This document shows positions 3,838 through 58,794 of a stretch of DNA of 64,000 nucleotides, piece after piece (within the stretch, counting starts at the first letter, position 1; the number at the start of each line of letters is the position of its first letter). Made by a program: the position numbers and the translations under genes. The stretch spans positions 1 through 64,000 of the forward strand of contig QIAU01000179.1 of NCBI GenBank assembly GCA_003225055.1. Direction: 5' to 3'. The notes under the pieces are model-generated. The model did not search any database and had not been told where the DNA came from. It saw only the letters and a program-made list of their open reading frames with translations. Source of the DNA: Acidobacteriota bacterium. Its GTDB lineage: Bacteria; Acidobacteriota; Terriglobia; Terriglobales; Acidobacteriaceae.

Positions 3838-3840
3838 TTC

Positions 3841-5301
3841 ATGAACTCGCCCACAACGGCAGGGCCCGCAACCAGGACCGAGCCCGCATCCAGGACCGAG
3901 CCCGCATCCGGTCCCACGCTGCTTCGTGGACTCACGTTGCTCGACTCGGTGCTGCTGCTGGTCAGCGGCATTATTGGGTCATCGATCTTTCTGACCGCCA
4001 AGGATATTGCGGCGCCTCTGCCCCATCCTGCACTGTTTCTGCTGGTCTGGGTACTGGGCGGAGTGATCTCGCTGTGCGCCTGCGTGGCATTTGCGGAGTT
4101 GGGATCTATGTTCCCGGATTCCGGCGGACAATACGTGTACCTGCGCGAGGCTTACGGCGATCTGATGGCGTTTCTTTACGGCTGGATGCTGTTTGCCGTC
4201 GCCAACGGTGGAACGATTGCCGCCCTGTCGGTGGCATCAGCCGCGTACATGGGACAAATCGTTCCCCTGATCTCCGAGGAAGATGTGATCTTGCGAGTCG
4301 CCGGCATCACCTTCACGCGAGCGCACCTGGTTGGACTGGTACTGATTGTTGTGCTCACTTTCGTGAATGTCTTTGGATTACGCTGGGGAGCGCTGCTGCA
4401 GAATGTCTCGACTTGGGTGAAGTTGACGGCGATGGCCGGGTTCGTGCTGCTGGGGTTCGCAATCGGAAAAGGTGATTGGAGCCACTTCAGCGGACGAGGC
4501 GCAGGCGGACTTGCGATGGGGCTCGGTCCTGCACAATTGATTTCTGCCATGGGCATCGGACTGATTGCTGTCTTTTGGGCCTATGACGGTTGGGTTTACA
4601 TCACGTGGGTGGCGGGTGAGGTCAAAGACCCGCGGCGCAACGTGCCCCTGGCGATGGTCTTGGGCGTGCTCGCGGTCGGCGTGATTTACATCGCGATGAA
4701 CATGACCTACGTGTACGCCCTGCCGCTCAAGGAAGTTGCAAAGCATGAAACCATTGCCCATGCAGCCGCTGCGCAACTGTTTTCTCCGCGCGCGGCAGCC
4801 TGGCTCTCCGCCATGATTGCAGTCTCCTGTTTCAGCGCGGCGGCGACCTGCACGTTGTCGGGCGCGCGGGTGTATCTCGCCATGGCCCAGGACGGGGTGT
4901 TCTTCAAACGCATGGCGCAGATTCATCCCCGGTGGCGAACGCCGGCCTTCAGCTTAATCGGCCAAGGCATCTGGTCGGCGGTGTTGACGATCAGCGGGCG
5001 CTACGACCAGCTTTACACTTACGTCATTTACGGAATGGTGCTGTCCTACACGCTGACCGTAATCGGAATGTTCATTCTGCGCTGGAAGCGTCCGGACGCG
5101 CCGCGTCCCTATCGCTGCACGGGGTATCCATGGGTGCCCGCGATCTACGTGTTGATGGGTGTGGCCTGGACGCTGAATACCATCATCACTCGCCCCACAG
5201 AAGCGTTCTGGGGCACTGCGATCGTGCTGGCAGGAGTGCCGGGATTTGTTTATTGGCGGCGGAGCAGCCGCAAAACGGCGCACCTGATGCAGGTGATGTG
5301 A
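3841..5301 (+). CDS. APC-superfamily amino acid permease
   Basis: 486 residues with about 12 transmembrane helices. The first helix carries the APC signature LLVSGIIGSSIF (GIIGxxIF), which contacts the substrate backbone in AdiC/LAT-type transporters. The following FAELGSMFPDSGGQYVYLREAYG block is the conserved loop and helix 3 region of amino acid/polyamine antiporters and LAT-like permeases. The N-terminus carries a repeated TRTEPAS sequence of low complexity. Substrate not predictable. It sits between the zinc-ribbon miniprotein (3 nt gap) and the Clp-N protein (1 nt overlap), so all three are probably one operon. Confidence 0.85.
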   Translation: MNSPTTAGPATRTEPASRTEPASGPTLLRGLTLLDSVLLLVSGIIGSSIFLTAKDIAAPLPHPALFLLVWVLGGVISLCACVAFAELGSMFPDSGGQYVYLREAYGDLMAFLYGWMLFAVANGGTIAALSVASAAYMGQIVPLISEEDVILRVAGITFTRAHLVGLVLIVVLTFVNVFGLRWGALLQNVSTWVKLTAMAGFVLLGFAIGKGDWSHFSGRGAGGLAMGLGPAQLISAMGIGLIAVFWAYDGWVYITWVAGEVKDPRRNVPLAMVLGVLAVGVIYIAMNMTYVYALPLKEVAKHETIAHAAAAQLFSPRAAAWLSAMIAVSCFSAAATCTLSGARVYLAMAQDGVFFKRMAQIHPRWRTPAFSLIGQGIWSAVLTISGRYDQLYTYVIYGMVLSYTLTVIGMFILRWKRPDAPRPYRCTGYPWVPAIYVLMGVAWTLNTIITRPTEAFWGTAIVLAGVPGFVYWRRSSRKTAHLMQVM

Positions 5302-46195: not shown

Positions 46196-47017
46196 GTGAC
46201 GCTCTCGGTCGTCATCATCACCTATAACGAGGAAGCCAATCTTCCGCGCACACTGGAAAGCGTGAAGCCGCTGGTTTCCGACGTAAAGGGCGAAATCATT
46301 ATTGTCGATTCGCACTCCACAGATCGCACCGTCGAAATTGCGCGCGCCTACGGCGCGAAGCTGTTCTTGGAAGACTGGAAGGGCTACGCCGCGCAGAAGA
46401 ATTCGGCGATTGACAAGGCGGGTGGCGATTGGATTTTGAGCCTCGATGGAGACGAATCAGTCGACGACGAGCTTTGCGCTAGTATCCGTTTTGTTATTTT
46501 GGGTGAAGCCAGGTCCTCTATCACGAACCCTATCGATGTCTGTCGAATTCCGTTCATCGATACCAATCTCCGCGGGTTCTGGATTAGCAGAAAGAACCAT
46601 TTTCTCGGCCGCTGGATCAAGCACGGCGGCTTTTGGCCCGATCCGAAACTTCGTCTGTTTCGCCGCGGCGCAGCAAGGTTTGAAGATCGTCCGGTCCACG
46701 AAGACGCGAAGCTGGAGGGACCTGCGGGAAGACTCAGCGGTACTCTTATTCACCATTCCTATCCAACCCTCTCCGACTACATCGCCCACATGAACCGCTA
46801 TTCCTCGCTGGGCGCGGAGATGGCGGCTGCCAAGAGTCATCGCGGCTTCAGCCGAATGAACATCGTTCTGCGACCGCTGGCGACATTCCTCTACAACTAT
46901 TTCTTCCGGCTTGGTTTTCTGGACGGACCGGAAGGCCTGCTCCTGCACCTCTATCATGCCGTTTACGTTTCGTGGAAATACGCCAAAGCGTGGGAACTGG
47001 CTAACCAGGGACGGTAG
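46196..47017 (+). CDS. GT2-family glycosyltransferase (WaaE/KdtX-like)
   Basis: About 273 residues from GTG 46196. [22 protein letters not shown] is the GT-A start; [18 protein letters not shown] carries the first metal/nucleotide Asp, and [15 protein letters not shown] contains the DXD-like motif. [26 protein letters not shown] resembles lipopolysaccharide core beta-glucosyltransferases. A C-terminal hydrophobic segment is present. An alternative GTG at 46124 gives 24 extra residues. GTG 46196 is preferred because family members start within a few residues of [10 protein letters not shown]. It adds a sugar to a surface glycan. Confidence 0.82.
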
Positions 47018-47141
47018 AGGCGAGGCAAGCCTCGTCCCTACCGACACGGATTTCTGGGCCGCCAACCGTCCGGTCGGTCACATCGCCGGTTATCTTGCCC
47101 CGCCTCAGGCGCTCTTCTATCATCATAAGGTTAACAACGCC

Positions 47142-48947
47142 ATGGGTGGCACCAAGAAGCCTTATTCCAAGCCGCAAGCAACCGAGAGCCCGACCGCTGA
47201 CGTCTTTGAAGGGCGGCATCCCTCCGAATCGGAAAAGCAGTGGGCCGAGAAGACGCTTGGTCCGACCCTCGAAAAGGCTCCGGAGAAGCCCCTGGGCGCT
47301 GCTACGGGCGTTAATGTCGACGAGCATGGCCAAGCCCGATACACCACGGTCTCCGGTGTCCCCATTCGCCGACTCTACACCCAGGCCGACCTGCCCGAAG
47401 ACTGGAACTACGAGAAATATCTCGGCTATCCCGGACAGCCTCCTTACACGCGCGGGATTCACGCCACGGGATATCGCGGCAAGCTTTACACCATGCGCCA
47501 GTTCTCCGGTTTCGCTGCGCCGGAAGAAACCAACCAGCGCTACAAATATCTGCTCGAACATGGCGGCAGCGGGCTGTCGGTTGCTTTTGATCTGCCGACG
47601 CTGATGGGCTACGACTCCGATCATCCGGCCAGCGAAGGTGAGGTCGGAAAGTGCGGTGTGGCCATCGATTCGCTCGAGGATATGGAAATCCTCTTCAGCG
47701 GCATTGACCTGGAAACAACCACCACCTCGATGACCATCAACTCGCCCGCTTCCGTGCTGTGGGCGATGTACCTGGTAGTGGCGGAAAAACAGGGCGCTGA
47801 CTGGAAGAAAATTTCCGGCACGATTCAGAATGACATCCTAAAGGAATACATCGCGCAGAAGGAGTACATCTATCCCCCCGCGCCATCCATGCGGCTGGTG
47901 GTGGACACCTTCGAATTCGGCTCGAAGTTCATTCCGCGGTGGAATACGATTTCAATCAGCGGCTACCACATCCGCGAAGCGGGCTCGACTGCACTCCAAG
48001 AATTAGCTTTCACGTTGTACGACGGCGTGGAGTACGTGGAATGGGCGCTGCGCCGCGGACTGGACGTCGACGATTTCGGGCCGCGCCTCAGCTTCTTCTT
48101 TAACGCCCACAACGACTTCTTCGAAGAGATCGCTAAATACCGGGCGGCCCGAAAGATCTGGTATCGCGTGATGAAGGATCGCTTCCAGGCGAAGAACGAT
48201 CGCACGCGCCTCATGCGCTTTCATACTCAGACGGCTGGTGTTTCCTTACCTGCGCAGCAGCCGATGAATAATATCGCTCGCGTGGCGATTCAGGCCATGG
48301 CGGCGGTGCTGGGCGGCACGCAGTCATTGCACACCGACGCCTATGATGAGGCCTTCGCCCTGCCCACCGAGGAAGCTGCCCGCATTGCCCTGCGCACCCA
48401 GCAAATCATCGCCCATGAATCCGGGGTGACCGAGACCGTCGATCCGCTGGGCGGATCGTATTTCCTCGAGCGTTTCACACTGGATATGGAAAAGGGCGCC
48501 TTCGAGTACTTCGACAAGCTGGATGCCATGGGCGGTATGGTGAAAGCGATCGAGCGCGGCTACCCGCAGAGGGAAATTGCCGAGGCCGCCTACCAATATC
48601 AGCGCGCGGTCGAGGCCAATGAGAAGATAATCGTCGGCGTCAATGAATTTCAGATCGAGGAGCAGCCGCCCAATATTCTCTACATCGATGAAGCCGTGGC
48701 GCGCCAGCAGAGCGTCAAACTCAAGGCTCTGCGGGCCCGCCGCTCGAGCGAGGAAGTAGGCCGCCGGCTAGACGCATTAAAGAAAGCTGCTGGCAAAGAA
48801 GCGAAGGCCGCCCGCAACGACAAGATTTCCGACGCCAACACGATGCCCTACATCCTAGATGCGGTTCGCGCCTACGCCACAGTGGGCGAAATCTGCGAAG
48901 CGCTGCGCCAGGTTTACGGGACCTACACCGAGGTGAGCGTCACCTAG
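47142..48947 (+). CDS. Methylmalonyl-CoA mutase, large (catalytic) subunit
   Basis: 601 residues. [27 protein letters not shown] is the mutase N-terminal TIM-barrel signature, with PYTRG and RQFSGF typical of MCM substrate binding. [20 protein letters not shown] and [22 protein letters not shown] are later blocks. The B12-binding domain is absent and is encoded separately at 54768-55199. It interconverts methylmalonyl-CoA and succinyl-CoA in propionate and branched-chain amino acid breakdown. AAGG lies 10-13 nt before ATG 47142. An upstream frame extension is rejected because it overlaps the GT2 gene. Confidence 0.93.
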
Positions 48948-49269
48948 ACACTACCAACCCGTTTGAAGACAGGCTGCAAGCTGGGTGATCGCACCGACAT
49001 CGGGGTGTCGAGCGAAGTGGTTGCCAAATATAAGTTCCTGTCCCTAATTTCATTCTCCAATCGGGCGCTTCGGTAATGATCCCGCCGAGTATAGAAAGCT
49101 TATCCGGCAAAGCTTCGTGAGTTGCACCGAAAAAGGCCAGGGGAAATGGACACTTGTGCCGACGGGCGTGGGATATCAGCGCTCGGCAAGTAAGCGCCGC
49201 CTGCATTGAAACCAATCGCGCACCGGCCGCTGCCACTGGCACGCGGAGGGCGCCGAAGGAGGGTCCCTT
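48948..49269. other. 322 nt with no supported gene
   Basis: Only short frames on both strands, without motifs. It lies between the mutase gene and the degraded cytochrome b gene and may be further decayed DNA. Confidence 0.4.
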
Positions 49270-49925
49270 GTGAAAGAACCCATCCTGAGCCCTGATCTGG
49301 CCGCCCCGGCTTCGATAACCCCGAGTGTCAGAATCGCGACTACGCCGGTGCCGCCCGCGCGCCCGCGTCTCCGCCATGGCGGTTGATTCTCCGCTTTCCG
49401 AGATCGGAACAGTTGCTGCACTGGTCTATCGCGGTTCCCTTCATGGTGTGCTATTTCACGGCAGCCATCCTGATTCTGATTCTGTTCTTTGGGCTGCATT
49501 CGGAGCGGCCGACCCGCGAGATTTTGTCCCGGATTCACCCAACCGCGGGCGGCTGCTTGTTGACCTTCCCGCTTTGGACTCTGTTGCGGAACTGGCATGA
49601 CTACAAGTTGCATCTGACTAACATCCGGCCAGCGTGGCGTTGGGCCTGGGCCCGTGTGAAATGGCTCGTGCTCATGGGTGTGGCCGCCGTAACCCCCGTA
49701 TGCAATTGCCGGAGCAAGGTAAGTTCAACGCTGCAGAAAAACATGAATTCCATGATGGTGATGGGAACCTATCCGGTCTTCATCGTGACCGGCGTGCTGC
49801 TGTGGCTCCCGGGAATCGCACTCGTCTCTTGGATTCTGACGTCGGGATGCGCTGGTCCGTTGCCCGGACTGCCACAGCGAGCACCTCGCGGCATCGTGGG
49901 TACGCCTAATTTTGGGTATGCCTGA
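49270..49925 (+). pseudogene. Formate-dehydrogenase-type cytochrome b subunit, multiple frameshifts
   Basis: From GTG 49270 the frame reads VKEPILSPDLAAPASITP. A shift near 49370 leads to RFPRSEQLLHWSIAVPFMVC, with a heme-ligand His, and HPTAGGCLLTFPLW. A shift near 49685 leads to MQLPEQGKFNAAEK, and another near 49742 returns to NSMMVMGTYPVFIVTGVLLW. Together they spell a FdoI/FdnI-like membrane cytochrome b. The fourth helix and the C-terminus are lost. No formate dehydrogenase alpha or beta subunit is nearby. It may be a relic or sequencing indels near homopolymers. Confidence 0.7.
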
Positions 49926-50188
49926 TCGAAAGCGTGCTGGAGGCTCACCCGCTCGGGTGCCCGGGTTGTGGCGCGAGCGCGCAGACCGTTTCTGTCATCA
50001 TGGAGCCTGCCGAAGCGGTTCCCATGCTGCGGGCTCTGGACCAGACCGGCAAGAGCCTGATCGGGGGTATACGGAAGAGGCGACAGCACCAACGCTTCGG
50101 ACTTCGGAAAAGCAACCGCCAGCACGCTCAGCGACTCATCCTGATAGCTTCGCGGATTGATGACTCGGGAATGAAGGGTCGGGGATTC
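49926..50188 (+). other. Possible fragment of a transposase-like zinc motif; otherwise no gene
   Basis: Frame 49934 onward reads LEAHPLGCPGCGASAQTVSV and IMEPAEAVPMLRAL. This loosely resembles the CPxCGG...IEDP C-terminus found in some transposases, but no flanking element or further motif supports it. The rest is not assignable. Confidence 0.25.
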
Positions 50189-50440
50189 TCAGGCTAACTT
50201 TTCGCTGAAATAGCACAGGGGAGTGCCTGCCCTGTACGCTCTATATCCCCGCTCGGTGAAGCGGATTACGCCGCGCACTTCTTCTTCCACGTAGCCTTCG
50301 TTTCGCAGTTCGGCGACTGTTTCGCGAAACAGGGCGGAGGCAAGATCGCCCTTGGGAATTCGGCAAAACTCCCGCGGATTATTCTCGTAGTATTCGGCCA
50401 GAGTAAGAAGCAGGCTGTCACGAACTGTATCTTCAAGCAT
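50189..50440 (-). CDS. Small acidic helical protein, unknown
   Basis: 83 residues from ATG 50440: MLEDTVRDSLLLTLAEYYENN..., then AELRNEGYVEEEVRGVIRF and YRAYRAGTPLCYF. Two or three helices and a beta hairpin (ERGYRAYR) are predicted by eye, like a short winged-helix domain. GGAG lies 8-11 nt before ATG 50440, which makes this start more likely than ATG 50455. No family recognised. It is divergent from the AmgK-like gene, with 295 nt between. Confidence 0.5.
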   Translation of the reverse strand: MLEDTVRDSLLLTLAEYYENNPREFCRIPKGDLASALFRETVAELRNEGYVEEEVRGVIRFTERGYRAYRAGTPLCYFSEKLA

Positions 50441-50735
50441 AAACCCGCGCTCCATAAGCGTGATAGTAGCGAGCCGGTAGCCTGATCGGAATGGCCCGTC
50501 CGTGCCAAAACACGGCAAAAACGGGGTTACTTTCGTGCATGTCCGATTGCGATGCGGTAGGAGCCAGAGTCCAAAGTTCTCGCCCATCTCAGCTCCATGA
50601 TTCGTCGACAGAACCGGGCCTCGAGGGGTATCGGCCGCGCTTTTTCTGGAGCCTATTGTCCCTAGGGGCGCGGACCCGGTGCCTCGATTGGGCGACGAGT
50701 TCGATGTTATCTTTACTCGATCGGGACCGATACTC

Positions 50736-52163
50736 ATGGAAGTTCTCAAGAATCTTTTTGAGCGGCATTTCCACGCGCCTGTCGAACGGGTGCAGCCGCT
50801 GCAGGGCCAGCTGGGCGGTTCGGGCCGAAAAGTCCTGCGGTTGTCCAACGAAGAATCCAGCGCTATCGGAATTCTGTACGACGTGCGCGAGGAGAATGTC
50901 GCTTTCCTGGAATTTTCCCGGCACTTTCGCCGGCATGGGCTGCCGGTGCCGGAGATTTACGCGGAAGACCTGACCCAGGGGGCATATTTGGAAGAAGACC
51001 TGGGCGACACAACGCTTTTCGACTTTCTCTCCAAGAACCGCACAGGCAGGGATATTGCTCGGCAAGTAGTGGAGATCTATGAGAAAGTTGCCGCCGTTCT
51101 GCCGCGTTTCCAGATCGAGGCCGGACGCGATTTGAATTACAAGGTGTGTTATCCACGGGGCAGCTTCGATCGCCAGTCCATCGCGTGGGACTTGAATTAT
51201 TTCAAGTATTACTTCCTCAGGCTCGCCGCCATTCCCTTCAGCGAACAGGCCCTGGAAGATGATTTCGGCCGCCTGACGAAATTCCTGCTCAGCGCAGACC
51301 ACAACTATTTTCTTTATCGCGACTTCCAGTCACGCAACGTGATGCTGCGCGATGGCCAGCCGTTTTTCCTCGATTACCAGGGTGGCCGCAAAGGCGCCCT
51401 GCAATATGACATTGCCTCGCTTTTGTACGACGCCAAGGCGGATTTGCCTCCTGAGCTGCGCCAGCAATTGCTCGATCATTATCTCGACAGCGTGGGTAGC
51501 CTGATTCAGCTTGATCGCGGGGCGTTCATCGAGTACTACTACGGCTACGTCTATGTCCGCATCATGCAGGCGCTGGGTGCGTATGGCTTTCGCGGCTTCT
51601 ATGAACGCAAAGCGCATTTTCTGCAGAGCGTGCCCTACGCGCTGAAGAATTTGCGCTGGCTGCTTCATCACGTCACGTTGCCCGTCGCTTTACCCGCGCT
51701 GATGGACGCTTTTCAGGGCATGCTGCGCTCGGAGAAATTGCAGAGCCTGGCTTCCGACGCCGATAATCTGGCAGTTCGGATTTTCAGTTTCTCGTTTCAC
51801 CGCGGCCTGCCCAAGGATGAAAGCGGAAATGGGGGTGGGTTTGTGTTCGATGGCCGCAGCCTCCCTAATCCCGGACGCGAGGAACGATTCAAGAGCCTGA
51901 CGGGGAAAGATGCGCCAGTGATCGATTACCTGAACCAGCAGGAAAGCGTGCATCAGTATCTCGCCAGCGTCATGTCGCTGGTGGATGCCAGCATCGCCAA
52001 TTATCAGAGCCGGGGGTTCAAAAATTTGATGGTTTCCTTCGGCTGCACCGGCGGCCAGCATCGCTCGGTTTACCTGGCCGAGCAGTTGGCGAAACATTTG
52101 CGGGCCCGGAATGGGCTGGCAGTGGCGGTGCGGCATGTTGAACTGGAGAACCTGGGTAAATGA
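50736..52163 (+). CDS. AmgK-like sugar kinase fused to a RapZ C-terminal domain
   Basis: 475 residues. The first 310 residues or so resemble aminoglycoside phosphotransferase-type kinases such as AmgK: YLEEDLGDTTLFDFL, LYRDFQSRNVML (catalytic Asp about 196) and FFLDYQGGRKGAL (metal Asp about 213). The last 130 residues match the RapZ C-terminal domain: SFSFHRGLPKDESGNGGGFV, GKDAPVIDYL and VSFGCTGGQHRSVYLAEQLA. AmgK phosphorylates N-acetylmuramate or GlcNAc at the anomeric carbon for cell-wall recycling. RapZ-C binds glucosamine-6-phosphate. The MurU-like gene overlaps its stop by 4 nt. Likely makes sugar-1-phosphate for the neighbour, with the RapZ domain as sensor, which is inference. Confidence 0.85.
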   Translation: MEVLKNLFERHFHAPVERVQPLQGQLGGSGRKVLRLSNEESSAIGILYDVREENVAFLEFSRHFRRHGLPVPEIYAEDLTQGAYLEEDLGDTTLFDFLSKNRTGRDIARQVVEIYEKVAAVLPRFQIEAGRDLNYKVCYPRGSFDRQSIAWDLNYFKYYFLRLAAIPFSEQALEDDFGRLTKFLLSADHNYFLYRDFQSRNVMLRDGQPFFLDYQGGRKGALQYDIASLLYDAKADLPPELRQQLLDHYLDSVGSLIQLDRGAFIEYYYGYVYVRIMQALGAYGFRGFYERKAHFLQSVPYALKNLRWLLHHVTLPVALPALMDAFQGMLRSEKLQSLASDADNLAVRIFSFSFHRGLPKDESGNGGGFVFDGRSLPNPGREERFKSLTGKDAPVIDYLNQQESVHQYLASVMSLVDASIANYQSRGFKNLMVSFGCTGGQHRSVYLAEQLAKHLRARNGLAVAVRHVELENLGK

Positions 52164-52906
52164 AAGCGATGGTTCTGGCCGCCGGCCTGGGTACGCGCTT
52201 ACGGCCGCTTACGGACGATCGCCCCAAGGCCCTGGTGGAGATCGCGGGCCGCACGCTGTTGGAAATCACCCTGGCTCGCCTGCGCAGCTTTGGGATTCAC
52301 GAGGTGATCATCAACGTACATCACTTCGCCGACATGGTTGTGGAGTATTTGAAAGCCAACCACAACTTCGGCATGCGGATCGCGGTCTCTCGCGAGGACG
52401 TCTTACTCGATACCGGCGGCGGCCTGAAGAAGGCTGCCTATTTTTTCCTGGAGAATTCGACGAATCCCGACCCCTCTTTCATTCTGCACAATGTCGACGT
52501 CATCAGCACGATTGACCTCGGTCGCATGGTCGAATTTCATTTGGAAAATCACGCCCTCGCCACTCTGGCGGTACAGGACCGCAAGACTTCCCGGTACCTG
52601 CTCTTTGACGAGCGGCTTCAGCTTTGCGGTCGTAGGGCCGGGCGCGATCAGCCCGATGCCCTGGTTCGCCCGTCGCCCCAGCCAGAGCCGCTGGCGTTTT
52701 CCGGCATCCACGTCATTTCCCCGCGTCTTCTTCCCATGATGAAGGAAGAAGGCATTTTCTCCATTATTACGTCTTATCTAAGTCTTGCCGCACGGGGAGA
52801 AAAAATCGTGGGTTTCCGCGCCGACCAGTATTATTGGCGCGACTTGGGCAGGCCGGAGAACGTAAAACAAGCCGCTTTGGACCTAAAAGAAAAAGCTCTC
52901 CCGTAG
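52160..52906 (+). CDS. murU: MurU-like sugar-1-phosphate nucleotidyltransferase
   Basis: 248 residues. KAMVLAAGLGTRLRPLTDDRPKALVEI is the nucleotidyltransferase signature (GxGTRxxPxT...KxxxxI), followed by DTGGGLKKAAYFF and a VDVISTIDLGRMV acidic active-site region. Best matching type is the N-acetylmuramate-1-phosphate uridylyltransferase or a related N-acetylhexosamine-1-phosphate enzyme. Start ATG overlaps the preceding stop (ATGA), so translation is coupled. With the AmgK-like protein it would turn MurNAc into UDP-MurNAc and bypass de novo peptidoglycan precursor synthesis. Confidence 0.82.
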   Translation: MKAMVLAAGLGTRLRPLTDDRPKALVEIAGRTLLEITLARLRSFGIHEVIINVHHFADMVVEYLKANHNFGMRIAVSREDVLLDTGGGLKKAAYFFLENSTNPDPSFILHNVDVISTIDLGRMVEFHLENHALATLAVQDRKTSRYLLFDERLQLCGRRAGRDQPDALVRPSPQPEPLAFSGIHVISPRLLPMMKEEGIFSIITSYLSLAARGEKIVGFRADQYYWRDLGRPENVKQAALDLKEKALP

Positions 52907-52920
52907 GCTCATCTACGCCT

Positions 52921-53655
52921 ATGCTCTTCCAGTTGATTGCGTTCCTGGCCGCCGCAATTGCGGGCGGGATCGGCTCGATCGCCGGTTTCGGCATTGGAAG
53001 CATTCTTACTCCGCTCGTGGCCGGGCGGCTCGGCACCAAGCCGGCGGTTGCGGCGGTTTCGTTTCCGCATCTCGCGGGAACCCTGCTGCGCTTCTGGTTC
53101 ATTCGAAAACACGTGGATCGCCGCGTGCTCCTCACGTTCGGGATCAGCAGCGCCGCTGGTGGATTGGCCGGGGCTTGGCTCCAGGTGTGGTTCAAAAGCG
53201 CTGTGCTGGGCTATGTTCTTGGCGCTCTGCTGGTCTTCGCTGGCGTTATGGGACTAACTGGGCTCGCCTCGCGCATGCGATTTGGCAAAGGAACAGGTTT
53301 GGTCGCGGGCGCCTTGTCGGGCGTATTTGGCGGGCTGGTGGGAAATCAAGGTGGCATCCGCTCCGCCGCCCTGATGGGCTTCCAACTGAGCAAAGAAGCC
53401 TTCGTGGCCACCGCCACCGCTATCGCGCTGCTCGTGGATGTGTTCCGCATGCCCGTGTACATCGCTTCGGAGTGGAGCGAGCTGATCGGCACCTGGCCTT
53501 TGGTCCTGGTGGCGTCCCTGGGCGTTTTGGCCGGTACTATCTTCGGACAACCGCTGCTGCGCCGGATCCCGGAGCGAATCTTTCGAGCGCTTGTCTCCTC
53601 GATCATCCTGGCGCTCGGTATTGCCATGCTGCTTCATCCGGGAGGTCACGACTAG
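52921..53655 (+). CDS. TauE/SafE-family sulfite/anion exporter-like membrane protein
   Basis: 244 residues with about seven or eight transmembrane segments. FLAAAIAGGIGSIAGFGIGS near the N-terminus and the repeated GALSGVFGGLVGNQGGIRSAAL block are typical of the TauE/SafE (DUF81) family, thought to export sulfite, sulfoacetate or other organic anions. ATG 52921 is preferred to an upstream frame start within murU. Same direction and 14 nt after murU, but a functional link is uncertain. Confidence 0.8.
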   Translation: MLFQLIAFLAAAIAGGIGSIAGFGIGSILTPLVAGRLGTKPAVAAVSFPHLAGTLLRFWFIRKHVDRRVLLTFGISSAAGGLAGAWLQVWFKSAVLGYVLGALLVFAGVMGLTGLASRMRFGKGTGLVAGALSGVFGGLVGNQGGIRSAALMGFQLSKEAFVATATAIALLVDVFRMPVYIASEWSELIGTWPLVLVASLGVLAGTIFGQPLLRRIPERIFRALVSSIILALGIAMLLHPGGHD

Positions 53656-53667
53656 AGTCGCAGCGAT

Positions 53668-53925
53668 TCACATTGCAGCGAATCGAGGGTCTCGCCCCCT
53701 CAACTGGAACATCACCCCGGTGCCTGCCTGCATGAAGGTATAGCGTTGGTGTCCTCCGATGCAGCCCTGCAAGGTGAGGTCTCGGGCGGCTGTTTCTGTC
53801 TTCGAGGAGTTGCTATGGGAAGACAGCACGCCGCGGTTTTGACTGCTCTGGGCCCCGGCGGCAGCAATCGACAACAGGAGGACTGCCGAAACGAGCAGTG
53901 TTTGGGTTAGACCGTCCTCGACCAT
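53668..53925 (-). CDS. Small secreted protein, unknown
   Basis: 85 residues. A signal peptide (LTQTLLVSAVLLLSIAAAGAQ, residues about 6-26) precedes a Ser/Asn-rich segment and LTLQGCIGGHQRYTFMQAGT, with a single cysteine. The core resembles the GC-xxxx-YTLxxxxG-xxYQL units of small acidobacterial periplasmic proteins, but the length is short and it may be truncated. Convergent with the TauE/SafE gene. Confidence 0.5.
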   Translation of the reverse strand: MVEDGLTQTLLVSAVLLLSIAAAGAQSSQNRGVLSSHSNSSKTETAARDLTLQGCIGGHQRYTFMQAGTGVMFQLRGRDPRFAAM

Positions 53926-54052
53926 GGAGCTTTAGACTGAACAGGCGGAGATGGGGTTGCCCGCTCAGGGGCTTGGGGCTCAGGAGCACAGTCCCGGAAC
54001 CGGGTCAGCATTTTCTTGCGTCTCCGGATAACTTCTCTGAATCAGTACTCGC

Positions 54053-54652
54053 ATGCGCAAAGGCATTGTTCACCTGAAAAAGTCCGATCCTGTACTGGCG
54101 GCGCTCATCGAACGCGTCGGGCCGTTTCGCATGAACTATGACGAACCTGGGTTTCATCATCTGGCCGAAGCCATCGTCTACCAGCAACTGCATGGCAAAG
54201 CCGCCGCGACCATTTTCAAGCGTCTCACGGATCTAGCCGGCTCGCCCCTCACGCCTGAGGGCATTCTCAAGCTATCGGAAGACGAGTTACGCGGGGTCGG
54301 TCTGTCCCGGCAAAAGCTCTCGTACCTGCGCGACCTGGCGGCCAAAACACAGTCCGGCGAACTCAATTTCGGCCAACTGCCTGCCCTTTCTGATGCTGAG
54401 GTAATCAAGCGACTCACCGAGGTGAAAGGCATTGGGGTGTGGACCGCGCACATGTTCCTGATGTTCGCACTGCGGCGTCCGGATGTGTTGCCCACAGGTG
54501 ATCTGGGCATACAGATGGCGATTCGCAAGCACTACAACAAACGCAAGCTGCCCAAGCCGCTCGAGGTGGAGAAGATCGCAAAATGCTGGGCGCCCTACCG
54601 CAGCGTGGCTTGCTGGTATCTGTGGCGCAGCATGGACATCAAGACAATGTAG
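54053..54652 (+). CDS. DNA-3-methyladenine glycosylase II-type (AlkA) repair enzyme
   Basis: 199 residues. LTEVKGIGVWTAHMFLMFAL is the helix-hairpin-helix DNA-binding motif, and the PTGDLGIQMAI that follows has the catalytic Asp of the HhH-GPD superfamily. The N-terminal YQQLHGKAAATIFKRL also fits AlkA/MAG1. It removes alkylated bases such as 3-methyladenine from DNA. Shorter than E. coli AlkA (282 residues) because the extra N-terminal domain is missing, as in many bacterial and yeast-MAG-like forms. Confidence 0.87.
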   Translation: MRKGIVHLKKSDPVLAALIERVGPFRMNYDEPGFHHLAEAIVYQQLHGKAAATIFKRLTDLAGSPLTPEGILKLSEDELRGVGLSRQKLSYLRDLAAKTQSGELNFGQLPALSDAEVIKRLTEVKGIGVWTAHMFLMFALRRPDVLPTGDLGIQMAIRKHYNKRKLPKPLEVEKIAKCWAPYRSVACWYLWRSMDIKTM

Positions 54653-54656
54653 AAAA

Positions 54657-54745
54657 TTGCTGATTGTCGATTTCCCATTGCCAATCGAAACCGGCCGTTC
54701 CGCGCAGGTCCAAATCGGCAGTCGGCAATTGGCAATGTTCGTGGA
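54657..54745. repeat. Inverted GGCAATTGGCAATG-type repeat before the mutase small subunit
   Basis: TTGCTGATTGTCGATTTCCC with ATTGCCAATCG (54659-54690) and AAATCGGCAGTCGGCAATTG with GCAATG (54711-54736) are complementary imperfect repeats in opposite orientation, forming a hairpin-like structure just upstream of the B12-binding subunit gene. Confidence 0.5.
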
Positions 54746-54767
54746 ACTTCGTCTGGTTTGTGATTAA

Positions 54768-55199
54768 ATGAGGGCGATGGCGAAGGAAGCGAAAATCCGC
54801 GTCCTGGTGGCCAAGCCGGGATTGGACGGGCACGATCGCGGCGCTAAAGTGATTGCCCGCGCGCTGCGCGATGCCGGCATGGAGGTCATCTATACCGGGT
54901 TGCGCCAGACTCCGGAGATGGTGGTAAATGCGGCACTGCAGGAAGACGTGGACGTCATAGGATTGTCGATTCTCTCCGGCGCCCATAACGCCATCGTGCC
55001 GCGCGTCATGGACCTGCTCAAGCAACACAAGATGGCTGACGTGCTGGTAGTGGTCGGGGGCATCATTCCCGACCAGGACATCGATGGGCTCAAGAAAGCC
55101 GGCGTTGCCGCCATCTTTCAGCCGGGCACGGCCATGGACGAGATCGTCACCTTCATTCGCGCCAACGTGAAGCCGCGCGGCGTGCCAGCCGCTGGATAG
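54768..55199 (+). CDS. Methylmalonyl-CoA mutase small, B12-binding subunit
   Basis: 143 residues. [24 protein letters not shown] carries the DxHxxG cobalamin-binding motif with the His that replaces dimethylbenzimidazole. [26 protein letters not shown] and [11 protein letters not shown] follow the B12-binding Rossmann fold. It completes the mutase whose catalytic subunit is at 47142-48947, so the holoenzyme is split over 5.8 kb. A downstream ATG at 54777 (MAKEAK) is also possible. Confidence 0.93.
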
Positions 55200-55269
55200 G
55201 TCTTCAAATTCAAGAACGCACGTAGCTCCCAAGACCTTCCGGCCGCACTTCTGTATGCTTGCTGCGAGA

Positions 55270-55896
55270 ATGTCTGCCCCTTCTCCCCACTTCACGATCG
55301 AAAGCTGCGAGGGGATCACGCTTTTGCGCTTCGAGTCGGCTGACGGCACGAATCGCCTGACTCGCGCCTGCGTGCTCGCGCTGACTGCCGCGGTTCGCGA
55401 ATTAGCTTTGGATCCCAAGCCCTTGATCATCACGGGAAACAAGAAGTTCTTTTCCGCGGGAGCCGAACTGGCGGAGATCGTTCGACTGACCGGGCCGCAG
55501 GGGTATGAATTTTCAAAGATGGGTCAGGCACTCATGGCGGATGTCGAGCGCTTCCCTGCCCCCGTGTATGCGGCAATCAACGGCTACTGCATGGGAGGCG
55601 CACTGGACTTGGTGCTGGCATGTCATCGACGGATTGCGTCGCCAACCGCGATTTTTGGGCATCAAGGCGCCGCCCTGGGCTTGATCACCGGATGGGGAGG
55701 AACCCAGCGGTTACCTCGATTGATCGGCAAGGCAAGGGCTCTCGAGATGTTCATCGCGGCGGAGAAGATTCATGCTCCCGCCGCGCTCGGGTTCGGTCTG
55801 GTGGACGAGGTGACTGAGAATCCAGTTGCCGAAGCCGCAGGTGAACTCGGTAGAAGAATCCGCCACAGAGGCACGGAGGCACAGAGAAGAAGTTAA
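55270..55896 (+). CDS. Enoyl-CoA hydratase/isomerase family, truncated C-terminus
   Basis: 208 residues. FFSAGAELAEIVRLTG and INGYCMGGALDLVLACHRRIA carry the two oxyanion-hole segments of the crotonase fold. The family normally has about 255-265 residues. Here the frame runs into the CACAGAGGCACGGAGG intergenic repeat and ends in RHRGTEAQRR, so the final helices that build the trimer are lost. MSAPSPHF at 55270 is used as start instead of the upstream MLAARM. Perhaps inactive, or the C-terminus was rebuilt by the repeat. Confidence 0.75.
   Translation: MSAPSPHFTIESCEGITLLRFESADGTNRLTRACVLALTAAVRELALDPKPLIITGNKKFFSAGAELAEIVRLTGPQGYEFSKMGQALMADVERFPAPVYAAINGYCMGGALDLVLACHRRIASPTAIFGHQGAALGLITGWGGTQRLPRLIGKARALEMFIAAEKIHAPAALGFGLVDEVTENPVAEAAGELGRRIRHRGTEAQRRS
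55863..55890 (+). repeat. CCACAGAG/GCACGGAGG repeat at the hydratase 3' end
   Basis: CCACAGAGGCACGGAGGCAC followed by AGAGAAGA, a near copy of the minus-strand repeat at 6109-6137. It forms the last codons of the truncated hydratase frame. Confidence 0.55.
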
Positions 55897-56118
55897 GTTC
55901 ACCAGGAAACGTAGAGATCCTTCGCTATGCCGGCTTTGGTTTTGTCTTTTAACCTTGCCAACACCCGTCGTTGTCACGGACAGAATGACAGCACTTTTTG
56001 GGCCTGAGACCTGATACCTTGACCCGACAGCTTCCGTCTGCGCCCGGCGCGCCCTGCCGCCGGGTTTGCACCTCTCTGCTCCGCTGGTATACCGTAACCA
56101 GTTTCGGGTACCGAACCG

Positions 56119-57828
56119 ATGGTTGACCGTAGAGACCCTGCCGATCCCAGTACGCTGACGATTTCGAATGTCCTCGAATCGCGGGTGGACGCCACTTCCC
56201 GGCGTTTTGAAGCCAATATGCGCGCCCTGGCCGACCTGATGGCAGCCGTCCACAATGAAGAGGAAAAAATTCGTGAAGGTGGCGGGCCCAAGGCGATCGA
56301 GAGCCAGCACGCGAAGGGTCGGATGACCGCGCGCGAGCGCATTGACCTGCTCGCCGATCCGGGATCGTTCTTCGAGCTGGGCATTTACGCGGCACACGGG
56401 ATGTACGAGGAATGGGGCGGCGCGCCGGCTGCGGGAGTGATCACGGGTTTGGCGCGCATTCACACCCGAATGGTGATGCTGATCGTGAACGACGCCACGG
56501 TGAAGGCGGGGGCGTTCTTTCCCATGACCTCAAAAAAAGTCATCCGGGCACAGAACATCGCGATCGAGAATCGGATTCCGACCCTTTATTTGGTGGACTC
56601 GGCCGGAGTGTTTCTGCCGCTGCAGGAAGATGTCTTTCCCGACACCGACGATTTTGGGCGCGTGTTTCGCAACAACGCGGTGATGTCGGCCATGGGCATT
56701 CCGCAGATTGCGGCCATTATGGGGATGTGCGTCGCCGGAGGCGGATATCTGCCGGTCATGTGCGATCACGTGCTGATGACTGAAGGCAGCGGGCTGTTCC
56801 TCGCCGGCCCGGCGCTGGTGCAGGCGGCAATCGGGCAGAAATGTTCCGCGGAAGAGTTGGGCGGCGCGGCCATGCATTCAGCCATCAGCGGGACCGCCGA
56901 TTTTCGCGAGCCGAATGATGAGGCCTGCATCGCCCGCATTCGATCCCTGGTTGAGAAATGGGGCTACCGGCGCCAGTCGCCGTGGGATCGCAAGCAACCC
57001 CGGCCGCCGGCCCAGGCCGCCGAGGAAATCTACGGCATCTTTGATTCCTCGCCGGCGCGCCCCTATGACACGAAGGAGATCCTGGCGCGCGTCATGGATG
57101 AAAGCCGGTTCGATGAATACAAGCCGGAGTACGGCAAGACCGTCATCTGTGGCTACGCGCGGATAGGGGGATTTGCCGTCGGCATCGTCGCCAATCAGAA
57201 ATTACATGCGCAGCAGGTGGATCACGAAGGCCGCAAGCGCATGGAATTCGGGGGCGTGATTTATACCGAGTCGGCGGAAAAAGCGGCGCGCTTCATCATG
57301 GACTGCAACCAGAACCTGGTTCCGCTGGTCTTCTTCCACGACGTGAACGGCTTCATGGTCGGCCGCGACGCGGAGTGGAGCGGGATTATCAAAGCTGGCG
57401 CGAAGATGGTGAACGCTGTCTCCAATTCCGTCGTGCCGAAAATCTCGGTGATCATCGGCGGCTCGTTCGGCGCCGGACACTATGCCATGTGCGGGAAAGC
57501 CTACGACCCGCGATTCGTTTTCGCCTGGCCCACGGCCCGCTATGCAGTCATGAGCGGCGATTCGGCGGCGGGCACGCTGGTGGAAATCAAGATCAAGCAG
57601 CTGGAGCGCGGCGGCAAGAAGTTGAGCGAAGACGAGCGTAAGGAACTGTACGAGTCGGTGAAGAAAACTTACCAGGAGCAGACCGATCCTCGGTATGGTG
57701 CTGCGCGATTGTGGATCGACAAGATTATTGATCCGCTCGAAACTCGTGACGCCATCATGCAGGCGCTGGAAGCCACGGCGCTCAACCCGGACGTGGCAGA
57801 GTTCAAGGTGGGAGTCTTGCAGACTTAG
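56119..57828 (+). CDS. Acyl-CoA carboxylase carboxyltransferase beta subunit (MCC-like)
   Basis: 569 residues. GRMTARERIDLLADPGSFFELG, the TLYLVDSAGVFLPLQEDVFPD segment and GKAYDPRFVFAWPTARYAVM match the biotin-dependent carboxyltransferase fold. The LPLQxxVFPD block is close to 3-methylcrotonyl-CoA carboxylase beta (MCC). It transfers carboxyl from carboxybiotin to the acyl-CoA. The biotin carboxylase/carrier alpha subunit is not in the window. With HMG-CoA lyase and the hydratase next to it, leucine degradation is likely. Confidence 0.87.
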   Translation: MVDRRDPADPSTLTISNVLESRVDATSRRFEANMRALADLMAAVHNEEEKIREGGGPKAIESQHAKGRMTARERIDLLADPGSFFELGIYAAHGMYEEWGGAPAAGVITGLARIHTRMVMLIVNDATVKAGAFFPMTSKKVIRAQNIAIENRIPTLYLVDSAGVFLPLQEDVFPDTDDFGRVFRNNAVMSAMGIPQIAAIMGMCVAGGGYLPVMCDHVLMTEGSGLFLAGPALVQAAIGQKCSAEELGGAAMHSAISGTADFREPNDEACIARIRSLVEKWGYRRQSPWDRKQPRPPAQAAEEIYGIFDSSPARPYDTKEILARVMDESRFDEYKPEYGKTVICGYARIGGFAVGIVANQKLHAQQVDHEGRKRMEFGGVIYTESAEKAARFIMDCNQNLVPLVFFHDVNGFMVGRDAEWSGIIKAGAKMVNAVSNSVVPKISVIIGGSFGAGHYAMCGKAYDPRFVFAWPTARYAVMSGDSAAGTLVEIKIKQLERGGKKLSEDERKELYESVKKTYQEQTDPRYGAARLWIDKIIDPLETRDAIMQALEATALNPDVAEFKVGVLQT

Positions 57829-57841
57829 GAGGAATTTTCGA

Positions 57842-57931
57842 ATGCGAATTTTCGGATTGACCGACCCAAAGTCCGAAATTCGACAGTTGTTAATTCGAAA
57901 ATCCCGATCAACACCATGCCTGACGCAGTGA
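57842..57931 (+). CDS. Possible 29-residue leader ORF ahead of HMG-CoA lyase
   Basis: A strong AGGAGG (57828-57833) follows the carboxylase stop and lies 8 nt before an ATG at 57842. That ATG opens the frame MRIFGLTDPKSEIRQLLIRK with a short tail and ends at 57931, 16 nt inside the lyase gene in another frame. A 10-bp inverted repeat (57834-57843 with 57893-57902) overlaps it. Either a small leader ORF controlling the lyase, or a chance ribosome site. The first is favoured weakly. Confidence 0.35.
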   Translation: MRIFGLTDPKSEIRQLLIRKSRSTPCLTQ

Positions 57932-58794
57932 AACTCATCGAATGTCCGCGCGATGCCTGGCAGGGGCTGAAAGGGCAGATTCCTACGCACATTAAGATTG
58001 ATTATCTGCAGGCTTTGATCAGCGCGGGTTTCAAGCACATCGATGCGGTCTCCTTCGTTTCGCCCCAGGCGGTGCCGCAGATGGCTGACTCGGAACAAGT
58101 GCTGGCGGAGGTCGATCCGCCGGACGATGTCGAGATCATCGGTATCGTGGTGAACGAGAAAGGGGCGGAGCGGGCGATCAGCACCAACGCGGTGCGCACC
58201 CTGGGTTTTCCCTATTCGGTTTCGCCAACCTTCCTGCGCAATAACCAGAAACAGGCGTTGGATGAGGCCATCGACGAATTGGAAAAAATTAAGGGCAAGG
58301 CGAACCAAGCGGGGCTGGGCGTGGTGGTGTACATCTCGATGGCCTTCGGTAACCCCTACGGCGAGGACTGGAGCGTGGAGGAAGTGGTTGAGGCGGTCGG
58401 ACTGCTGGAAGCGGAAGATATTCACATGATTTCGCTGGCCGACACGGTCGGATTAGCAACACCAGAGCAGATTCGGGAATTGGTCGGCGCCGTGAGAGCG
58501 CAATACGACTATCTGGAAATCGGGCTGCATCTGCACAGCCGCCCGGGACACGCCGCGGACAAGATATTGGCGGCTTACGACGCGGGCTGCCGCAGGTTCG
58601 ATTCGGCCCTGGCCGGACTGGGCGGATGTCCCTTCGCGCAGGACGCACTCGTAGGAAACATTCCCACCGAAAAGGTGCTTGAGACGCTGGGCGGAAAGGG
58701 CGCCGGGTTGCCGCCCCTGAAATCTCTGGATGGGCTGCTCAAAGCATCGTTGGGGATTGGCGCGAAGTACATCGGTTCTTCCGCGGCGGACTGA
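57916..58794 (+). CDS. mvaB: Hydroxymethylglutaryl-CoA lyase
   Basis: 292 residues. IECPRDAWQGLKGQIPT is the catalytic N-terminal motif (canonical PRDGLQN), MGNPYG-like SMAFGNPYGEDWS and EIGLHLHSRPGHAADKI are the active-site blocks, and FDSALAGLGGCPFAQ is the conserved C-terminal block with the catalytic Cys region. It splits HMG-CoA into acetyl-CoA and acetoacetate, the last step of leucine catabolism. The PRDA form instead of PRDG occurs in a Bacteroidetes/acidobacterial-like subgroup. A 29-residue ORF with a strong ribosome site overlaps its start. Confidence 0.87.
   Translation: MPDAVKLIECPRDAWQGLKGQIPTHIKIDYLQALISAGFKHIDAVSFVSPQAVPQMADSEQVLAEVDPPDDVEIIGIVVNEKGAERAISTNAVRTLGFPYSVSPTFLRNNQKQALDEAIDELEKIKGKANQAGLGVVVYISMAFGNPYGEDWSVEEVVEAVGLLEAEDIHMISLADTVGLATPEQIRELVGAVRAQYDYLEIGLHLHSRPGHAADKILAAYDAGCRRFDSALAGLGGCPFAQDALVGNIPTEKVLETLGGKGAGLPPLKSLDGLLKASLGIGAKYIGSSAAD

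Follow-up and report, generated by a model that had tools for sequence, protein, structure and literature searches.

An AmgK-like kinase fused to a RapZ C-terminal domain and its possible place in N-acetylmuramic acid salvage

Why would a predicted sugar kinase carry the C-terminal domain of RapZ? The question is raised by a gene within the 64,000-nucleotide stretch of DNA that we analyzed (hereafter the window; contig QIAU01000179.1 of assembly GCA_003225055.1, from a soil bacterium of the Acidobacteriota), in which an AmgK-like kinase and a RapZ C-terminal domain (RapZ_C) share one open reading frame that overlaps a MurU-like gene. We propose that the two genes form a salvage unit for N-acetylmuramic acid (MurNAc), in which RapZ_C would be a phosphatase of MurNAc-6-phosphate (MurNAc-6-P) that does the job of MupP before the kinase acts. 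We hold this reading tentatively, at a probability of roughly 0.4, and hold more firmly the broader proposal that a hexosamine-6-phosphate produced by AnmK is what RapZ_C acts on, be it as a catalyst or a sensor. A phosphatase is our first choice because the cysteine of the domain's anion loop is invariant, because the domain is able to exist separately from the kinase, and because the pathway needs such a step.

In the proposed scheme AnmK would convert anhydro-MurNAc to MurNAc-6-P, and RapZ_C would remove the 6-phosphate, C437 serving as nucleophile while R443 and the amides of the loop cradle the phosphate. The kinase domain would turn MurNAc into MurNAc-1-P and MurU would turn MurNAc-1-P into UDP-MurNAc, while the fusion would hand MurNAc from the active site of RapZ_C to that of the kinase. 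A route that leads from AnmK to AmgK requires a phosphatase for MurNAc-6-P, which in Pseudomonas is MupP (PMC5371407). The AnmK-MupP-AmgK-MurU pathway of Pseudomonas putida, P. aeruginosa and Caulobacter has in common with the system described here an AmgK-like kinase coupled to MurU and an AnmK in the genome. It differs in that RapZ_C is found on the kinase here only, and in that MurQ, absent in Pseudomonas (PMC5371407), is often present here. MupP is a HAD-superfamily phosphatase and the fusion has no HAD domain, so that the likeness to MupP is one of proposed function only.

A two-domain protein and its MurU-like partner

The original prediction had described an AmgK-like kinase fused to the C-terminal domain of RapZ, and this description was borne out by Pfam and by fold matches to both parts of the 475-residue frame. 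Only two Pfam domains were identified in the protein, APH (PF01636, residues 51–250, 53.5 bits against a cut-off of 23.2) and the RapZ C-terminal domain (PF22740, residues 346–470, 121.3 bits against a cut-off of 27). AlphaFold2 models of the whole fusion and of the C-terminal domain alone had mean predicted local distance difference test scores of 91.1 and 93.3, respectively, and the latter matched the C-terminal domain of E. coli RapZ (5o5s) with a Z of 20.8 and a root-mean-square deviation (rmsd) of 1.3 over 123 aligned residues. The score of the protein against the NCBIfam RapZ model (114.7 bits) was under its cut-off of 244 because half of the RapZ family is absent: the fusion lacks the N-terminal P-loop (Walker A) domain of RapZ and has the APH kinase in its place. 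An in-frame GTG at 50679 is an alternative start that would add 19 residues. Relatives of the source genome contained 12 full-length orthologues with 51–82% identity, and judged from these sequences the fusion is more than chance.

Besides RapZ, the only NCBIfam models that matched the fusion (E-value up to 0.01, as for all NCBIfam matches) were two AmgK models. Both matches were weak, at 55 and 47 bits, far below the cut-offs of 500 and 550, and it is because these equivalog cut-offs were not reached that we write "AmgK-like". The kinase part of the model matched the APH-type kinase 3csv (Z 29.2, rmsd 2.6, 306 residues aligned) and has the APH fold with the catalytic D...N...D expected of an AmgK; we take the loop R195-D-F-Q-S-R-N201 to be the APH-type D...N catalytic motif. 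D196, N201 and D213 were invariant in 13 of 13 sequences and conserved at 90% or more in a set of 51. The wording "MurU-like" was chosen for the same reason, as the two best NCBIfam models of the second gene were both MurU models with scores (120 and 115 bits) under their equivalog cut-offs (250 and 370). Its best match by sequence in the PDB was 4y7t (E 9.6e-21).

These low scores leave room for a different sugar, with the pair making another UDP- or NDP-sugar unrelated to MurNAc, and the kinase fold also matched a GlcNAc 1-kinase (4ocj, Z 19.7) and a glucosamine kinase (6hwl, Z 19.9). We nevertheless consider this quite improbable. AmgK and MurU were the best models of the two genes, the RapZ_C-bearing kinases are associated with AnmK (see below), and by eye a MurA-like gene start follows MurU in a relative. 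In addition, a MurU-like frame accompanied the kinase in 71 of the 80 best loci (of 581) kept from a scan of named genomes, in which the ranking by full-length match favors the fusion. We infer from these data that the substrate of the kinase is MurNAc. The coupling to MurU through a four-nucleotide overlap, also part of the original prediction, was confirmed, and the role it had foreseen in MurNAc or amino-sugar salvage is likely.

The pocket of the RapZ domain

To compare residues, we set 94 fusions (that of the window and 93 of 96 fused frames, three being short or identical) against 29 of 29 canonical RapZ proteins, using E. coli RapZ numbering. All 94 fusions and all 29 canonical proteins had D182, R184, N188, P189, C247, T248, G249 and G250, the loop cysteine C247 therefore being kept in 123 of 123. 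H252, R253 and S254 were present in every canonical RapZ and in 93 of 94 fusions, the exception being a frame-shifted sequence (locus L077). Four of the five residues of the anion and glucosamine-6-phosphate (GlcN6P) pocket of E. coli RapZ (H190, T248, G249, H252 and R253) were thus kept. The fifth, H190, whose change to Ala inactivates E. coli RapZ (PMC9841335), was Gly in all 94 fusions, as was D178, and canonical RapZ is variable at position 190 too (H in 15, N in 8, Y in 5 and F in 1). Further changes specific to the fusions were W191 to R/K and K238 to F. K270, from the RNA-binding tail, was not kept in the fusions, where the position is hydrophobic, nor in the 29 canonical proteins. The fusion in the window ends in RARNGLAVAVRHVELENLGK and lacks the KRK cluster of the C-terminal RNA-binding consensus of RapZ, RxRxKNxQxRHRTxxKRK (PMC7525490), which is reportedly limited to Enterobacteriaceae. 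In summary, the fusion has in common with RapZ of E. coli and YvcJ of B. subtilis the fold, the C-T-G-G-x-H-R-S loop and D182, R184 and N188, and differs from them in the missing P-loop domain and final KRK cluster, the two replacements by Gly and a GNGGG insertion.

In the AlphaFold2 model the C-x-x-G-x-x-R-S loop follows a strand and leads into a helix. We take C-x5-R-S to be the core of the protein-tyrosine-phosphatase (PTP) signature, and in PTPs and low-molecular-weight PTPs this motif likewise lies between a strand and a helix. Unlike in those enzymes, no WPD-type acid loop was identified in RapZ_C. The word "phosphatase" is absent from the two RapZ structure papers (PMC9841335 and PMC5737377), in which the likeness to PTPs is accordingly not named, and no paper that brings together RapZ and CX5R was found among the matches listed.

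Published work on E. coli RapZ is in several respects consistent with chemistry at this loop. The C247A and C247S variants were both inactive, leading the authors to propose a catalytic -SH, and the pocket density in crystals of the C-terminal domain with GlcN6P was described as "likely a chemically transformed product" (PMC9841335). Sulphate or malonate was bound in the C247 loop of other crystals (PMC5737377). In addition, YvcJ is cited as having "NTPase and phosphatase activities", and phosphatase activity is in the title of a paper on HpaP (both cited in PMC7525490).

Spread, history and company of the fusion

The original prediction had suggested a distinct design and a survey across phyla. 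The fusion was found under about nine phylum labels in the best 80 named loci (Acidobacteriota, Calditrichota, KSB1, Elusimicrobiota, Neomarinimicrobiota, Bacteroidota, Ignavibacteria, Opitutia and Deferribacteres), so that it is not a feature of one lineage, and the idea of a design distinct to the source organism was not upheld. RapZ_C was on the kinase in all 80 of these loci, one of which (L067) is cut by a contig end and one (L077) frame-shifted. The four-nucleotide overlap was present in 41 of the 71 loci with MurU, as judged from the start of the MurU profile and not from each start codon; two of the nine loci without MurU are at a contig edge and the other seven are from Bacteroidota. 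Among 61 genomes of the source and its relatives, 14 had the kinase, in each case with a MurU-like frame in the flanking sequence retrieved, and the one genome of the source's own genus lacked it. A draw of 297 Acidobacteriota genomes contained the full fusion in six (among the matches listed), and a draw of 198 Bacteroidota genomes gave 23 full-length matches, three of which (G402, G421 and G485) have stops between the domains. Apart from MurU, no cluster of neighboring frames occurred in more than five of the best 80 loci, the clusters being unannotated. On this distribution we consider that the fusion is old and widespread, not peculiar to the source genome.

Three candidate variants were rejected. 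The extra N-terminal fusions of L098 (a 963-residue frame) and L106 appear by eye to be open frame of high-GC DNA without a domain, and the single kinase-RapZ_C-MurU frame of L077 is read as a frameshift, as its RapZ_C exits the family frame just after CTGG.

A literature search, with most subscription papers outside its reach, found nothing joining AmgK with RapZ, nothing on RapZ fused to a phosphotransferase in Bacteroidetes, nothing joining MupP, AmgK and Bacteroidetes, and only small-RNA work on RapZ and peptidoglycan recycling. AmgK and MurU are also named in Tannerella forsythia, a member of the Bacteroidota, in a paper that makes no mention of RapZ (PMC7670621).

In a midpoint-rooted tree the fused kinases formed one clade (SH-aLRT 99), and salvage-type RapZ_C and canonical RapZ fell on opposite sides of one branch (support 99). 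When separate frames are scored as presence of RapZ_C, the tree of 146 kinases requires three changes of the domain, a single gain and two losses, and the trees fit one fusion followed by two losses. One loss is represented by a relative (G060) that is nested inside the fused clade and whose kinase ends, and MurU starts, at the same ATGA, with RapZ_C cleanly absent; the other (G399) again has the four-nucleotide overlap with MurU. Unfused kinases also lie beside a MurU-like gene, in 63 of 78 listed cases in Acidobacteriota (L118–L141 and L249–L302) and 38 of 39 in Bacteroidota, and the pair therefore looks older, with RapZ_C a later addition. The Bacteroidota pairs are kinase first, like those of the fusion clade; the Acidobacteriota pairs have the reverse order, transferase first.

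RapZ_C was found apart from the kinase in four Bacteroidota genomes, firmly so in two. In G402 its frame lies between kinase and MurU, with four stops and a gap after the kinase, and in G570 kinase and RapZ_C are on separate contigs. The G570 copy (G570:C18; L212, 1535–1936, minus strand) is a free-standing salvage-type RapZ_C of 133 residues from the Bacteroidota draw, and no kinase or MurU match was identified in the 3.6 kb around it. In the other two, a single stop separates the domains: the G485 frame starts at the same Met as that of G402, while in G421 a sequencing error is possible. The best tree needs three such separations, and well supported branches force one. These separate frames indicate that RapZ_C can work in trans, as an enzyme could, and a purely intramolecular sensor of GlcN6P fits them poorly.

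Because AmgK needs MurNAc and AnmK delivers MurNAc-6-P, we compared the occurrence of AnmK with that of RapZ_C. The comparison was made among kinase-bearing genomes, without counting canonical RapZ as RapZ_C and counting once a Bacteroidota genome that was present twice (G390); for 41 of the 80 named loci (L070–L112 without L077 and L089), the host genome was searched for AnmK, MurQ and RapZ_C. AnmK accompanied RapZ_C in 16 of 17 Acidobacteriota genomes, 17 of 24 of the Bacteroidota draw and, over the cut-off, 34 of 41 named genomes, or in 66 of 81 RapZ_C genomes overall (fused or separate, one genome being in two sets). In kinase genomes without RapZ_C it was found in 0 of 25 from Acidobacteriota and 0 of 40 from Bacteroidota (together 0/65). 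Fisher's test on the 146 kinase genomes gave 3.6e-27, a value that treats relatives as independent. The telling part of the association is that both genomes that lost RapZ_C within the fused clade, G060 and G399, have no AnmK. The company of AnmK points at MurNAc-6-P rather than GlcN6P as the ligand or substrate.

A second possibility, and our main rival, is that RapZ_C is a sensor, which binds GlcN6P, or MurNAc-6-P or GlcNAc-6-P, and switches the kinase so that salvage tracks amino-sugar supply, in line with the original prediction. E. coli RapZ binds GlcN6P with a dissociation constant of 186 nM and its isolated C-terminal domain binds more tightly (PMC7073468), the anion loop is kept in 93–94 of 94 fusions, domain and kinase form one protein in 77 of 81 RapZ_C genomes, and a sensor of MurNAc-6-P would fit the AnmK association equally well. 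However, the pocket histidine is Gly throughout the fusions, albeit at a position that varies in canonical RapZ; a purely intramolecular switch leaves the separate RapZ_C frames unexplained; and the cysteine is invariant yet does not figure among the anion contacts named in PMC5737377. A sensor thus explains the fusion and the company of AnmK nearly as well as a phosphatase, and does not explain the separate copies or the cysteine. We regard it as a serious contender that itself falls short of even odds. The narrower notion that the domain is simply the GlcN6P sensor of E. coli RapZ, unchanged, is weakened by the two replacements by Gly, the separate frames and the company of AnmK.

A third possibility is that RapZ_C is an oligomerization or partner module, either holding two kinases together as a dimer or binding canonical RapZ and thereby linking salvage to GlmS control. 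The C-terminal domain of RapZ can dimerize by itself (PMC7073468), and the source genome has a canonical RapZ with P-loop on another contig (G000:C98). We consider this unlikely, since the pocket residues are invariant and since a search of 41 named fusion genomes found no other RapZ_C in 29, where the fusion is therefore not a partner of canonical RapZ. A heterodimer with canonical RapZ was rejected as a general mechanism on the same count.

Returning to the phosphatase, a number of observations weigh against it or against the evidence drawn on for it. After RapZ, the fold matches of the domain were phosphofructokinases and P-loop kinases, with no PTP among the matches listed (the best 50 of 185 from Foldseek and 50 VIA entries), so that any likeness to PTPs, if real, is local. 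All E. coli RapZ variants tested by pull-down lost RNA binding (PMC9841335), and the C247 phenotype alone is thus no proof of catalysis. The phosphatase activity of YvcJ and HpaP could sit in the N-terminal P-loop domain. The association with AnmK is confounded by clade, there being three tree contrasts, none opposed, with a median sign test p of 0.25, and AnmK is just as frequent in relatives that lack the kinase (41 of 47 in Acidobacteriota, 119 of 134 in the Bacteroidota draw). G399 is on a long branch and its exact position is unsure, and G052, which belongs to the family of G060, has retained RapZ_C and has no AnmK. All three Opitutia searched have RapZ_C and no AnmK over the cut-off, and AnmK was rejected as an absolute partner, since 15 of 81 RapZ_C genomes are without it over the cut-off. 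Conversely, in a wider Acidobacteriota set of at least 78 listed unfused kinase matches and G060, AnmK was present in 3 of 79 genomes (G184, G237 and G305), or 3 of 119 RapZ_C-free kinase genomes when Bacteroidota are included. Of these three, G184 has a MurU-like neighbor and G237 and G305 have none, AnmK thus occurring in one of the 63 listed Acidobacteriota unfused kinases beside a MurU-like gene. Lastly, MurQ, a competitor for MurNAc-6-P, was found in 10 of 14 kinase genomes and, at E 1e-30, in 26 of 41 named RapZ_C genomes, 16 of them over the cut-off.

The absence of MurQ was a weak candidate as a partner of the fusion and was set aside: it was missing over the cut-off in 4 of 14 kinase genomes (G004, G031, G057 and G060) and in 3 of 47 kinase-free genomes (G025, with a part only, G041 and G059). 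Many of the named genomes are metagenome drafts, and absences in them are consequently soft. The source genome itself has both AnmK and MurQ.

Genomic setting and implications

The positions of the gene pair and its motifs are collected in Table 1. Promoter and terminator scans of the window gave no more than scans of shuffled sequence.

Table 1. Features of the kinase-RapZ_C gene and the MurU-like gene in the window
Feature	Position	Strand	Basis or remark
Kinase-RapZ_C fusion gene	50736..52163	+	Single open frame, 475 aa, ATG at 50736
AmgK-like APH-fold sugar kinase domain, ~aa 1–330	50736..51725	+	PF01636, weak NCBIfam AmgK models, fold 3csv
Kinase catalytic loop R195-D-F-Q-S-R-N201	51318..51338	+	Followed by D213 at 51372–51374
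RapZ C-terminal domain (RapZ_C), aa 346–470	51771..52145	+	PF22740, fold 5o5s
GNGGG loop, inside insertion specific to salvage-type RapZ_C	51825..51839	+	Insertion relative to E. coli RapZ; GxGGG invariant; Gly in place of D178
N-P-G-R, pocket H190 replaced by Gly, then Arg/Lys	51867..51878	+	94/94 fusions; H/N/Y/F in 29 canonical RapZ
C437-T-G-G-Q-H-R443-S444, C-x5-R-S phosphate-binding loop (E. coli C247–S254)	52044..52067	+	Conservation; strand-loop-helix setting
ATGA overlap of fusion gene and MurU-like gene	52160..52163	+	4 nt common to both frames
MurU-like nucleotidyltransferase, 248 aa	52160..52906	+	Two best NCBIfam models NF045761/NF045697; PDB 4y7t

The nearest recognized neighbors are unrelated to salvage: a methylmalonyl-CoA mutase upstream and a TauE/SafE permease downstream. 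The large part of the mutase (46911–48947) and its B12-binding subunit (54768–55199) lie on either side of the salvage pair, which is also flanked by enoyl-CoA hydratase, carboxyl transferase and HMGL-like genes (46911–58794), as if the pair had been inserted into a propionate or branched-chain cluster. Between the mutase and the fusion (49383–50197) are short plus-strand frames without a Pfam match, of which the one at 49383 resembles, on inspection by eye, a segment of a membrane protein and may be what is left of a decayed gene. A 219-residue minus-strand frame (50189–50848) likewise has no Pfam match and overlaps the beginning of the fusion gene. Judged by eye, the final portion of this frame is similar to a small winged-helix protein, and the stretch that overlaps the fusion is likely to be spurious. 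In the relative mentioned above (L009, genome G031), the gene after MurU (3840–4433) starts, by eye, like MurA, the UDP-GlcNAc enolpyruvyl transferase, which would place salvage beside de novo synthesis of UDP-MurNAc.

If the proposed role is correct, RapZ_C would fill the step of MupP in many phyla; we know of no assigned enzyme for this step in those phyla, although our search was not exhaustive. More speculatively, the C-terminal domain of RapZ may at root be a cysteine-dependent sugar-6-phosphate phosphatase, whose C-x5-R loop would have arisen separately from, or very remotely from, the PTPs. It would serve as salvage phosphatase in Acidobacteriota, Bacteroidota, Elusimicrobiota, Calditrichota and others, fused there as a two-step enzyme, and the RNA and GlcN6P regulation exerted by E. 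coli RapZ would be a later use of the same active site. We regard this extension as possible but rather doubtful. A phosphatase would give the C-terminal domain of RapZ a chemical function and would explain the loss of E. coli RapZ activity in C247S. If the domain is a sensor instead, the fusion would be a widespread salvage kinase with a built-in receptor for amino-sugar phosphates. Either way, a small riboregulator domain, which in nature also exists on its own as a protein of about 135 residues, would be directly assayable.

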